From positions 1-64,000 of the forward strand of contig BPGB01000004.1 in the NCBI GenBank assembly GCA_026002815.1: DNA of 64,000 bases, in the 5' to 3' direction. Origin of the DNA: Candidatus Woesearchaeota archaeon (GTDB lineage: Archaea; Nanobdellota; Nanobdellia; Woesearchaeales; UBA9642). The notes beneath the pieces were generated by a model, which was given only the letters and a program-made list of their open reading frames with translations, was not told the origin of the DNA and did not search any database. Numbering within the stretch: the first letter of the stretch is position 1; each line of letters begins with the position of its first letter. The translations under genes and the position numbers were made by a program. Below are positions 13,023-27,601 of the stretch, piece after piece.

Positions 13023-13031
13023 TTTATAAAT
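13023..13031 (+). promoter_or_regulatory. TATA box of the CAT tRNA
   Basis: TTTATAAAT lies 34 nt before the mature 5' end of the tRNA. The same 34-36 nt spacing occurs at tRNA-Ser(TGA) (box near 13592), tRNA-Lys (near 15230) and tRNA-Glu (near 22861), implying a short 5' leader removed by RNase P. Confidence 0.55.
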
Positions 13032-13056: not shown

Positions 13057-13196
13057 GCGGGTGTAACTCAGCCTGGTTAGATTGCCACGCTCATAAACGC
13101 TATTGAGCGATGAGCCTTCGGGCAATGAATTGGGATACGTGGAAGTCGCGAGTTCAAAAGAAGGGCTTGTATCTTCTGAAATTCTCGCCACCCGCA
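13057..13196 (+). tRNA. tRNA with CAT anticodon (elongator Met or Ile2) carrying two introns
   Basis: Acceptor GCGGGTG/CACCCGC and T-stem GCGAG/CTCGC are intact. The anticodon arm is CCACG-CTCATA, then 41 extra bases (13096-13136), then A-CGTGG; anticodon CAT at 13092-13094. CTCA (32-35) pairs with TGGG at the intron end, with bulges TA^A and AT^A: canonical 37/38 site. The T-loop holds 24 extra bases (13159-13182); TTCA pairs with TGAA, with bulges AA^A and AT^T, so the second intron is at 59/60 and the mature loop is TTCAAAT. Whether it is Met or Ile2 cannot be settled by eye. Confidence 0.9.
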
Positions 13197-13203
13197 TTTT
13201 TTA

Positions 13204-15739: not shown

Positions 15740-17281
15740 TCATTTAGTAATATCGCATTTTCCTGGTAGGTTCCAATTATCTCTTCTTATGTTTTTAACT
15801 CCTAAATCTTTAGCTATTTTTTCCATCTCTGCAACCATTCCTGGAGGACCACATATCATCCAAGTATAATCTTCTGGCTTATTAACATATTTTAGAATCA
15901 TTTCCTTATTTATTCTTCCTTTTTCTCCTAGCCAGTTAGAATCATACTTTTCTAATGTGTTCATTATATAGATATTGTCTCTGCTTAAATAGTCTAGTTC
16001 TTCTCTGAATATTATGTCGTCATAAGTACAATTCGCATTTAATAATATTATTCTGTTTTTCATATTATTATTTCTTACATGTCTTAGTATGCTTATGAAT
16101 GGCGTTATTCCTGTACCACCAGAAAGCATTAGAATATTTTCTTCTGTATCAATTTTATATGTTTCTCCTAATGGTTTGCTTATTAGAAGTATTTCTCCTA
16201 TTTTAGAATTTATTAATTCTCTACTATATCCACCCATATCTTTTATTGTAAATCTTAAATTATCTTCTTCTGGCGCGCTTGCAATAGTTATTGGTATGTA
16301 TTCTTTATTGTTTATAGTTATACCTTTTCCAATCATTACATATTGTCCAGCTATGAATGAAAATGGTTTCTCTGTAATTATAGTATAAACATCATGTGTT
16401 TCTTTTTTTATGTTTATTATTCTTACTGGATATTTGTCTTTTTTACCTATTATGCTTTTAATTTTTTCTTTGTCAATAACTCTTTTATATAATGGAGTTT
16501 TGTCTTCGTCATATATTCCTATTGATTCTTCGAAAACCTCTTTATCTTTTATATATAGTATTCCTAAAGGCATCTTTTCTGTTTCTAGTGCTTTTGAGAA
16601 TGCCCAACCTTTATTATGCGGGTCGAATTCTTTTTCTAGATAGTATGTGTGTTCATTATACCATTCATAAGTGTTTAATTTGTTGAATGTAACACATGGT
16701 TGTAATATATCAACTAATGCAAATCCTTTATGTGTAATTGCTTTTTTTACTATTTCTTTAGCATGTTCCATATCATTTACGCTTGCTCTTGCAACGAATG
16801 ATGCATCAAGCGATATTGCCACAGCTAATGGATTGAATGGTTCAAGAATAACTCCTGAAATTTGTACAGGCGTTTTCATTCCTTTTAAACTAGTAGGGCT
16901 TGCTTGTCCCTTTGTCAATCCATAAATCATGTTATCATGAACAATAACTGTTATGTTAGGATTTCTCCTTATAGCATGTATGAAGTGATTCCCTCCTTCC
17001 CCATACATATCTCCATCTCCGCTTGTTACTATGACTGTTAATTCAGGATTGCTTGCCTTTATTGCAGTTGCAGGGGGTAATGCTCTTCCATGTAATCCAT
17101 TAAAATAATTAGTATTAAGATATTGTGGAAGTTTTGCTGCTTGTCCAATTCCTGAAACAATAACAACTTTTGTAGGATCGAGAGAAAGTTCATCTAACGC
17201 TTTTTTAACTATGTTTATTATGCTGAAGTTTCCACATCCTGGGCACCATGCAATATCGTTATGATTTATTTCAAAAGGCAT
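15740..17281 (-). CDS. 2-oxoacid:ferredoxin oxidoreductase beta subunit fused to FNR-type flavin reductase
   Basis: A 513-residue two-domain protein. Residues 1-280 are the thiamine-diphosphate beta subunit of a 2-oxoacid oxidoreductase: [19 protein letters not shown], the TPP/Mg motif [25 protein letters not shown]. Cluster cysteines C13, C16 and C196 are present, but the fourth position (of SGIGC in KorB) is Q47, which I recall as typical of one bacterial subfamily. Residues 284-513 are an FAD/NAD(P) reductase of the FNR superfamily: [33 protein letters not shown]. Its ATG overlaps the stop of the upstream fusion gene by one base (TAATG), so both are translated as a coupled pair. Predicted to pass electrons from 2-oxoacid decarboxylation to or from NAD(P)H. 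Confidence 0.9.
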
Positions 17282-20190
17282 TATATCGTCCTCGATATTT
17301 TTTCTACTAGTTCTTCAACACTGAAAGGCAGGCCATTATATTTTAATATTTTCTCGACCTTTATGCCTGTTTCTTTTTTTATTAGATTAGCAAATTGTCC
17401 TGTAGAATTATTTTCTATTACAATAATCTTTCTTGCTTTTTTTAAGTATTGTTCTGTTTTAGGATGTAACGGATAAACTTGCGAGTAATGTAAGTATGAT
17501 ATTTTTTCTCTTTTAATTCCTGTGGATATAATTGTCTCAACAGCCTCTTTAACAGTTCCATAAGTGCTTCCCCAACTTATTATTAAAATATCATAATTTT
17601 CTTCTTCGCCAAAAATTTTTGGAGGTATTGATTCTTCAAGAATAAGCTTGTGTTTTTTCATCCTCTTCTCAACCATTATATTCCGTACATTCATGTTTTC
17701 AGTTATTCTCCCATATTCATCATGTTCATCACTATCTACGCAGACTGTTCCCTCCCCAAATCCAGGTATTCCTCTTGGACTTATTCCATTATCTGTAATA
17801 GAGTATCTCTTGTAATCCTTAGAAGTTTTTATTATGTGATGTTCAACATTTAAGTTATTTAAGTCTATTAGGGGTACATTATTTACAGTGTCGATAAAAT
17901 ATTGATCCGTTAATATAAATACAGGAATTTGATACTTTGCAGCAGCATTAAATGCTTTTTGTGTTAAATATATTCCTTCTATCAGGTTTCCTGGAGCATA
18001 TATTAATCTACAGAATTCCCCATGTCCAGAATATAGTGCAAGATTTAAGTCTTCTTGTGCAGTTCTAGTAGGAAGTCCTGTGGCTGGGCCTGGTCTTTGT
18101 GCGATGTGTATTACTATTGGGGATTCAATCATTCCTGCAAGACTTACACCTTCAGTCATTAGAGCAAAACCTCCTCCTGAAGTGTTTGCAAGTGCCCTCG
18201 CACCAGCATACCATGCACCTATAGCCATATTAATTGCGGAAATTTCATCTTCGGCTTGCTCTACTATTATTCCAAAATCGTTCTTCTTTGAAGCCATATA
18301 AGTTAGAACGCCTGTTGAAGGAGACATAGGATATGCTGATATGAAGTTACAACCACCAGCAATTGCGCCTATACCTATACTTTCTGAGCCATGTAACAGA
18401 ATTTGTTCTTGTACATTTTTATCAGTATTTATATTAAACAACTCTCTTATATAGTTATTATTCCTTAATCTTTGTCCTTCTTCATAGCCCTTATTTGCTG
18501 CTTGAATATTTTGTTCAACTACATTAGAAGGTTTATCGGAAAAACTTTTTCTAATCAATTCATGGAATCGCTCTATTCTAGAATTAAAGATTCCTAATAT
18601 TATTCCAGTAGCTACAGTATTAGCAAATATTTTTGAACCAATATTTGATGCAATATCCATTATTGGGACATCAAAAATTTTTTCATTATTTTCTCCTAAT
18701 ATTTTTTTATCACCTATAATGATTGTTTTTTCAGATATTCTATCTGAAAGATGGTTTATTGCATTTTTGTTTAGGGGGAGTAAAACATCTATCCTGTTAA
18801 TATACCCTTCAATAGGTTTTGAACTTACTCTTATGGTTGTAGAGTTTTCGCCTCCTCTAACTCTAGACATGTATTCTTTAGTCGCAAATATGTTATATCC
18901 TTCGTTTTTAAGTATTTGGGAAAGAAAATTAAAGATTGATTCTATACCTTGTCCGGCCTCTCCACATAGCACTATATTTACTTCTTTGGTTTCTTGATTT
19001 TTTGAATTATGCTCTATGTTATTTTGAATTATTCCTAGTTCTATGTGTTTGCTAATTACTTTTTCAACAACAGAATCCATTAATGAATACTTATTTTCTT
19101 TTAATAGTCCTTTTATTTGTGTTGGTTCAATTAATTCTGCTTTAAAATTATTTGTCAATTGTTTAAATTGTTCAGGTGCATTGCTTCCCCATTCATATGA
19201 TCCTATAAATGTCAATATTTTAGTCTTTGGGTGCAGAGAATTTGCAAGATATAGTATTGATGCAATTTTTGGATGTAAGCCTCCTAAATAAGTTGGGCTC
19301 GCGACAATCAAAGTTGAAGCATCAACTAAATCCATTGCAATTTTTCCAGCATCAACATCAAGAACATTATATTCTTTTACAGTTATTCCTTTTTCAATAA
19401 GTTTTGTTACTAAGTATTTAACCATCCCCTTGGTGCTACCATGCATTGAAATATATACAATAACGACTTCTGGTTTAACTTTTTTTGAAGTCCATTCTTC
19501 ATATAAGGATAAAGGATATTCAGGATTGTTATACATTGGACCATGACTTGGTGCTATTATTTCAATATCTAATTTTCTTATTTTTTCAAGATTTTTTGTT
19601 ATTATATTAGCAAACGGCATCATTATTTCAGAATAATACCTTTTTGCTGGGAGATATATATTTTCATCTGCATATAAATCGCTTGTTGCAATATGCGAAC
19701 CAAAGAAGTCGCAAGTAAAAAGTATTCTATCCTCAATTAGATATGTACACATCGTTTCAGGCCAATGAACCCATGGAGTGAATATAAATTGCAAGGTTTT
19801 GTCCCCTAATGAAAGTTTGTCATAATCGTTCATGATGATGAAATTTGATTCTTCTAAGAAGTGTTCATCCATCAATATTTTTTTGTTCAATTCATTACAT
19901 ACAATTTTACATTCAGGATATTTTTGTAAAACTGCATTTATAGATCCAGAATGATCTTGTTCACCATGGTTCGATATTATATAATCTATCTTCTTTATTG
20001 TTTTTAGATTTTCTAATAGAACATCAGTCATCGTGGGGTCTACTGTGTCTATGAGCGCTGTTTTTTCAGAACCAATAATTAAGTAAGAATTATAGCTTGT
20101 ACCTTCTGGAAGATAAATTATTTCATCAAAGTATTTCCTATCCCAGTCTATTGCTCCAACAGAATAAACATTTTCTGTTATCTTTTTCAT
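17281..20190 (-). CDS. Flavodiiron protein fused to 2-oxoacid oxidoreductase gamma and alpha subunits
   Basis: A 969-residue triple fusion. Residues 1-240: beta-lactamase-fold diiron domain with all ligands visible (H75, E77, D79, H142, D161, H216), the O2/NO-reducing site of flavodiiron proteins. Residues 241-385: flavodoxin-like FMN domain ([33 protein letters not shown]). Residues 403-585: gamma subunit ([23 protein letters not shown]). Residues 595-969: alpha subunit ([44 protein letters not shown]). Start after GAGGTG. The beta subunit follows with a one-base overlap. Together they should make an alpha-beta-gamma 2-oxoacid oxidoreductase physically tethered to an oxygen/NO reductase. No 4Fe-4S ferredoxin (delta) domain is seen. 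Confidence 0.93.
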
Positions 20191-27506: not shown

Positions 27507-27601
27507 GCGACTGTAGTATAGTGGTAGAATGCGACCCTCCCAAGGTCGTGACCCGGGTTCGAAATCCAATAGTTTGATTGACGAAAGTCCCGGCAGTCGC
27601 A
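27507..27601 (+). tRNA. tRNA-Gly(CCC) with 24-nt T-loop intron
   Basis: Acceptor GCGACTG/CAGTCGC, anticodon arm CGACC-CTCCCAA-GGTCG with anticodon CCC (27539-27541), no intron there. T-stem CCGGG (27553-27557) and CCCGG (27589-27593) enclose 31 bases. Removing 24 bases (27564-27587) leaves the loop TTCGAAT. TTCG pairs with CGAA, with 3-base bulges AA^A and AG^T, and the intron closes with a TCCAAT/ATTGA helix (one bulged C): a full bulge-helix-bulge at 59/60. Discriminator A. Three bases separate it from the next tRNA. Confidence 0.92.

Follow-up and report, generated by a model that had tools for sequence, protein, structure and literature searches.

In archaeal box C/D guides the methylation target lies opposite the base five positions upstream of box D or D', and a symmetrical ribonucleoprotein with two domains, C/D and C'/D', has been described as essential (PMC6770171). 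In Pyrococcus, four C/D sRNAs target nucleotide (nt) 34 of exactly tRNA-Leu(CAA), tRNA-Leu(UAA), tRNA-Met, and tRNA-Trp; the one for tRNA-Trp is that tRNA's own intron, for which action in trans has been reported (PMC7994747). Cm34 is thought to keep tRNA-Met off AUA and tRNA-Trp off UGA (PMC7668247). For N. equitans, the passages of PMC3491384 that concern the elongator tRNA-Met intron describe a stable RNA derived from it and propose that it is a C/D sRNA. Noncanonical introns, alone or beside a canonical one, are already known from archaeal tRNAs (PMC4090602, PMC8450103), and archaeal regulators made of L7Ae and a kink-turn are known as well, according to the relevant part of PMC6298567. 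Here we describe a twice-interrupted tRNA gene whose anticodon intron carries a predicted guide and kink-turn aimed at C34 of the same tRNA.

The gene, with anticodon CAT, spans positions 13057 to 13196 of the window, by which we mean the whole stretch of 64,000 nucleotides that was analyzed. Contig C4, which begins with the window, belongs to a 1.70-Mb genome (G000) that is 82% complete and has its closest relatives among Woesearchaeota. The features of the locus are as follows.

13023 to 13031, plus strand: TATA-like element TTTATAAAT, 26 to 34 bases upstream of the tRNA; putative promoter, from its position only
13057 to 13095, plus strand: exon 1 of tRNA-Met(CAT), nt 1 to 37, with C34 at 13092 (sequence; ARAGORN on the spliced form)
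13090 to 13093, plus strand: CTCA, nt 32 to 35, which can pair with the guide (13104 to 13107) or, alternatively, with the BHB strand (13131 to 13134) (pairing counts, folding)
13096 to 13136, plus strand: intron 1, 41 nt, position 37/38 (sequence; position conserved in relatives)
13103 to 13109, plus strand: guide TTGAGCG, of which 13104 to 13109 are complementary to tRNA nt 30 to 35 (alignment, pair counts)
13105, plus strand: G, the fifth base upstream of the D-like box, opposite C34 (register test on Trp/Leu relatives)
13110 to 13113, plus strand: box D-like (D') AUGA of the predicted kink-turn (alignment A1)
13114 to 13123, plus strand: kink-turn stem and loop, GCC-UUCG-GGC (compensatory changes in 53 sequences)
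13124 to 13130, plus strand: 3-nt bulge AAU and box C-like GAAU, the latter in predicted tandem G-A pairs with D' (alignment)
13131 to 13134, plus strand: TGGG, 3' strand of the anticodon BHB helix (sequence, pair counts, folding)
13137 to 13158, plus strand: exon 2, nt 38 to 59 (ARAGORN on the spliced form)
13159 to 13182, plus strand: intron 2, 24 nt, T-loop position 59/60, BHB helix 13153 to 13156 with 13177 to 13180 (sequence, folding, relatives)
13183 to 13196, plus strand: exon 3, nt 60 to 73 (ARAGORN on the spliced form)
13197 to 13202, plus strand: run of six Ts immediately 3' of the tRNA, likely a terminator (sequence)

The first-pass annotation of this DNA had described a CAT tRNA interrupted by two introns, one of 41 nt at 37/38 and one of 24 nt at 59/60, and its coordinates, lengths, and helices are correct. 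CTCA pairs with TGGG in the anticodon bulge-helix-bulge (BHB) motif and TTCA with TGAA in the T-loop motif, each with 3-nt bulges (3-4-3). When the anticodon arm and its intron are folded in isolation, the CTCA:TGGG BHB structure has the minimum energy, and folding of the T arm gives both the outer and the inner helix (z of -2.95). Both junctions are able to form BHB motifs, and the view that maturation takes two BHB-type splicing events in one tRNA also holds. The same annotation expected that removal of both introns would leave a standard tRNA, and the spliced sequence is indeed a 75-nt cloverleaf that ARAGORN calls as tRNA-Met(cat). ARAGORN finds no tRNA in the unspliced gene or in the form that lacks intron 1 alone, and it calls the form that lacks intron 2 alone once an anticodon-loop intron is permitted. 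The intron arrangement accounts for the failure of standard scanners on such tRNAs; ARAGORN and Rfam scans of the window both missed the gene at 13057 to 13196. Position 11-24 of the D stem has mismatched C and U in this genus (G000, G002, and G003) and a C-G pair in other relatives. Elsewhere in the window, two adjacent fusion ORFs lie on the minus strand at 15740 to 20190; one encodes metallo-beta-lactamase (ODP)-flavodoxin-POR gamma-POR alpha (969 aa) and the other POR beta-FAD/NAD reductase (513 aa).

Both introns are kept at the same positions in G002, in which the 59/60 intron is 28 nt long and differs in sequence, with an identical TTCA:TGAA helix. G003 has intron 1 and lacks intron 2, and its T loop, TTCAAAT, is exactly what splicing predicts for the window gene. 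A 59/60 intron is present in 13 of 53 related elongator tRNA-Met genes. The T-loop intron is an ordinary noncanonical BHB intron that is gained and lost between species. The window holds a second 59/60 case, a tRNA-Gly(CCC) gene (27507 to 27601, plus strand) with a 24-nt T-loop intron (27564 to 27587, helix TTCG:CGAA), which ARAGORN misreads as a 69-nt tRNA. In genome G015, the T-loop introns of elongator tRNA-Met (L036) and tRNA-Trp (L216) have sequence in common (CAGCNGGTTACGCTC...), a likeness that suggests intron copying between tRNA genes; such copying has reportedly been described for Thermoproteales. In some relatives (L066, L069, L188, L192, L194, and L195) the elongator tRNA-Met gene has, besides the guide intron, a short extra insertion on the 5' side of the anticodon stem (~30/31).

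The first-pass annotation further supposed that these junctions call for a heteromeric splicing endonuclease, and the gene content does not bear this out. In each of 16 genomes (this one and 15 relatives, several of them complete) there is exactly one EndA gene (PF01974) above the Pfam cutoff and no second, structural subunit. Among solved structures, EndA of this genome is closest to the catalytic subunit of N. equitans. The beta subunit of that species is itself detectable from this EndA (E of 8e-17), so that a similar beta subunit should have been found here. Judged from these gene counts, a heteromeric EndA is not indicated, with a very divergent partner possible. The strict 3-4-3 motifs of the window gene suit a homomeric enzyme; the BHB motifs of some relatives are looser than this.

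Intron 1 is more than a spacer. Within it lie a guide and a kink-turn, both conserved and directed at C34; these had been overlooked when the intron was described as holding two small hairpins. One of these, GCC/GGC (13114 to 13116 with 13121 to 13123), is the conserved kink-turn stem; the other, CGCT/AGCG (13098 to 13101 with 13106 to 13109), overlaps the guide and is not seen in relatives. Nearly all intron-bearing orthologues examined have the arrangement TTGAGYG-ATGA-[short stem-loop]-NATGA at a variable distance from the exon, and 53 distinct elongator tRNA-Met introns have TGAGY-NNGA-stem-NATGA in common. The D-like box is NNGA in 53/53, mostly AUGA with CUGA in a minority, and the C-like box is mostly AUGAUU or AUGACU. 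The order of D-like NNGA, stem, three-base bulge, and GA, with potential tandem G-A pairs, is that of a predicted kink-turn. Its stem contains GC, AU, CG, UA, and GU pairs among the 53 sequences and is lengthened to eight pairs in G002. Guide and kink-turn together take up about 25 to 30 nt, with a guide duplex of only 5 to 7 bp.

Given the alignment alone, RNAalifold finds two helices involving the intron, namely, the kink-turn stem and a hairpin of exon nt 31 to 35 with TGAGY just before the D-like box. For the 53 introns, 94.1% of cells are paired and 62 are double changed, compared with 18.8 in shuffles (0/500), and the covariation score is 0.329, compared with at most 0.074 for slid structures. 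All of nt 31 to 35 pair with the guide in 53/53 introns, a set partly picked by a search for TGAG, so that only nt 30, 31, and 36 are free tests of pairing. Exon nt 31 and its guide partner are Watson-Crick in 71/71 sequences, spanning G-C, A-U, and C-G, and two further members of the class have U-A; nt 34 pairs with the guide in 71/71. Introns that have lost the outermost pair, at nt 30, tend to have gained one at nt 36 (Fisher P of 5e-8, with relatedness ignored).

The intron has been lost from elongator tRNA-Met in G001, G005, and G006, and in G004 it has no guide. A strict pattern for a replacement guide acting in trans (GATGA..ATGAGNNCTGA), too strict to be conclusive, gave no match in G001, G004, G005, G006, G024, or G039. 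One locus in G001, which has no intron in elongator tRNA-Met, could be a stand-alone C/D sRNA with a CTTGAG guide (L213, G001:C1:34913-34989, minus strand), and it could target nt 34 of tRNA-Leu(CAA). An Rfam search at a low threshold returned no meaningful family, the best match being a Tetrahymena C/D snoRNA (13.9 bits, E of 1.7), and no outer box C or D was found in the intron. A recurrent CTGAG near the 3' end of the intron, considered as an outer box, proved to be the BHB strand plus the closing C. An intron-internal helix that sequesters the guide was rejected as a general switch, as the mean longest helix is 4.1, compared with 3.3 in shuffles, which is a weak enrichment; such a helix is strong in only one clade, which has longer linkers.

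Guide and kink-turn also occur in other tRNAs. Model R1, a covariance model built on the elongator tRNA-Met intron with the guide pairing left out of its structure, matches 128 of 279 genomes of the phylum, and its second matches in the same genomes are introns of tRNA-Leu(CAA), tRNA-Leu(UAA), and tRNA-Trp(CCA) with the same architecture. In these introns the guide is changed to suit its own tRNA, with A opposite U34 in Leu(UAA) and G opposite C35 in Trp; across the tRNAs all four bases occur at nt 31 (G, A, C, and U), with C, U, G, and A, respectively, opposite them. A second model (R2), built from 18 Trp/Leu-type introns, matches 118 of 145 genomes of the order. Both models were trained on guide-bearing sequences, so these match counts lean towards the motif, and the sequences are related to one another. 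The genome studied here has a second case with the same guide and kink-turn, a tRNA-Trp(CCA) gene (G000:C1:202299-202365, minus strand; L211). Its tRNA-Leu(UAA) gene (G000:C7:4937-5087) has a D-arm insertion and an anticodon intron and has no guide motif. Pattern matches in named genomes fall in archaeal tRNA genes in 39 of 40 cases, nearly all on records titled Woesearchaeota or Nanoarchaeota.

The register of the guide is strict. We examined 90 R2 loci, of which 81 could be parsed by the kink-turn alone, leaving the guide unused; several of the other nine plainly have the same motif with a shorter stem. At 70 of the 81 loci nt 34 lies opposite the fifth base upstream of D' with nt 31 to 35 all paired, while other offsets account for 0 to 2 of 81 each, a result that bears on register and not on frequency because R2 is guide trained. 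As a control in two genomes, guide and kink-turn occur in 5/5 Met, Trp, and Leu tRNAs with introns and in 0/22 other intron-bearing tRNAs.

We estimate a probability of about 0.84 that the anticodon intron is a guide for 2'-O-methylation of C34 of its own tRNA, within an elongator tRNA-Met gene with two spliced introns. This sequence-based reading draws on the five-base rule, the nt-34 targets in Pyrococcus, the N. equitans parallel, and the genes for Nop5 and fibrillarin, which are adjacent in this genome. (A second fibrillarin gene with a partial Nop domain lies at a contig start, G000:C18:1-873, and is either an extra copy or contamination.) The guide would pair with anticodon-loop nt 31 to 35, either before splicing or in trans as the excised intron; the hairpin next to it would form a kink-turn to which L7Ae presumably binds, and Nop5-fibrillarin would then methylate C34, five positions from the D-like box. 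Because the guide helix and the BHB helix share the exon bases CTCA, methylation and splicing must follow one another in a set order. The simplest would be for methylation to come first, with the excised intron acting in trans equally allowed by the sequence. EndA would then cut both BHB motifs, and Cm34 would keep the tRNA on AUG rather than AUA. A broader proposal is that single-kink-turn intron guides are complete archaeal methylation guides, against the two-domain rule, and that in four tRNAs they form a cis-acting bistable checkpoint, with nt-34 methylation before splicing, across the order; we hold this tentatively, at slightly short of even odds. Two introns might also join in one ribonucleoprotein, or the BHB region might replace the second domain.

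That the guide helix competes with the BHB helix for one set of exon bases would also be expected if kink-turn and guide pairing served as an L7Ae-bound switch that controls folding and splicing, with no methylation. The known L7Ae-kink-turn regulators are in line with such a switch, as is one clade in which the guide region also pairs with the 3' part of the intron over 6 to 10 bp. This explanation is nevertheless unlikely, because it predicts neither the strict five-base register nor the exact choice of tRNAs with known nt-34 guides (PMC7994747), both of which methylation predicts.

With regard to the identity of the tRNA, the anticodon CAU would also fit tRNA-Ile2, in which C34 becomes agmatidine. 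The initiator is a separate gene (AGCGGGG, G000:C4:117806), and apart from it just one other CAU gene was found in this genome, in a phage-like tRNA array. The array (G000:C2:163510-184000) is dense and bacterial-like, with an HNH-like ORF nearby, and looks like phage or a contaminant binned with the genome. Since the third CAT gene is on this phage-like contig, and since a listing of CAT tRNAs in G015 did not detect a tRNA-Ile2, such listing does not eliminate Ile2. We consider Ile2 quite improbable on other grounds: in the relevant passages of PMC3491384 the C/D-like intron RNA of N. equitans belongs to elongator tRNA-Met, and a guide for nt 34 is consistent with Cm34. By this parallel and by the guide, rather than by elimination, the gene is very probably elongator tRNA-Met.

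That the intron is a plain BHB intron, with the TGAG repeat and hairpin as by-products of splice-motif folding, is very improbable. Strands complementary to CTCA, such as TGAG and TGGG, are required for the BHB in any case, and the splicing structure is itself supported by the alignment. However, the BHB helix is kept at 83%, compared with 96% for the guide helix, whose pairs are thus the more strictly kept (with nt 31 free of the TGAG selection). Nor does plain splicing account for another complement, separate from the first and at a constant distance from a kink-turn that covaries, for the covariation seen at nt 31 across four types of tRNA, or for the absence of guide and kink-turn from the 22 other intron-bearing tRNAs. 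Finally, an unspliced pseudogene with chance insertions, for which the failure of standard scanners is the only argument, is hardly credible given the complementary splice helices, the clean spliced cloverleaf, the conservation of the introns in G002, and the plausible promoter and terminator signals.

A self-directed C34 guide bears on why archaea retain introns in tRNA-Met and tRNA-Trp, as the intron would carry the tool for modifying the wobble base. At its small size, the element makes the two-domain requirement for archaeal guides testable, and it suggests that archaea with small genomes may fold guide RNAs into the genes they serve.

Compared with box C/D RNAs in general, the Met and Trp/Leu introns have a kink-turn with tandem G-A pairs and a 3-nt bulge (predicted from sequence, as is its geometry) and a guide upstream of D/D' with the target opposite the fifth base. 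Their boxes depart from the consensus (D, CUGA; C, RUGAUGA), and inspection of both intron sets found no second kink-turn. Because these two defining features of archaeal C/D sRNAs are lacking, we class the element as a C/D guide variant. Against the open-licence literature, the single hairpin-closed kink-turn and its spread to four tRNAs across the order look new.

With the noncanonical and multiple archaeal tRNA introns described previously (PMC4090602, PMC8450103), the window gene shares the 59/60 position, the BHB junctions, and the presence of a canonical and a noncanonical intron in one gene. Most reports of those introns come from Crenarchaeota, Nanoarchaeota, and Thaumarchaeota, with enzymes of two subunits, whereas here the host is a woesearchaeote with one detectable EndA. 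The 66-nt intron of N. equitans elongator tRNA-Met likewise has box C- and D-like motifs and yields a stable RNA, and it is described under Nanoarchaeota, a group name that many of the records in our set also bear (PMC3491384). The relevant passages of that report present a possible C/D RNA and name no target, whereas here there are a C34 target, a register, and covariation, together with a single hairpin-closed kink-turn and the spread over the order and four tRNAs. The intron C/D RNA of euryarchaeal pre-tRNA-Trp (sR50; H. volcanii and Pyrococcus) guides ribose methylation at nt 34 of its own tRNA, and Trp is also in the present set; it has two sites, Cm34 and Um39 (PMC7994747), compared with one kink-turn and one guide here, in Met and two Leu tRNAs as well. 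The stand-alone nt-34 C/D sRNAs, that is, the four Pyrococcus guides (PMC7994747) and Haloferax sR-tMet, have the same target nucleotides and tRNAs as the introns described here. In contrast, they are encoded by separate genes and act in trans, while in the present tRNAs the guide lies inside the intron of its own target.
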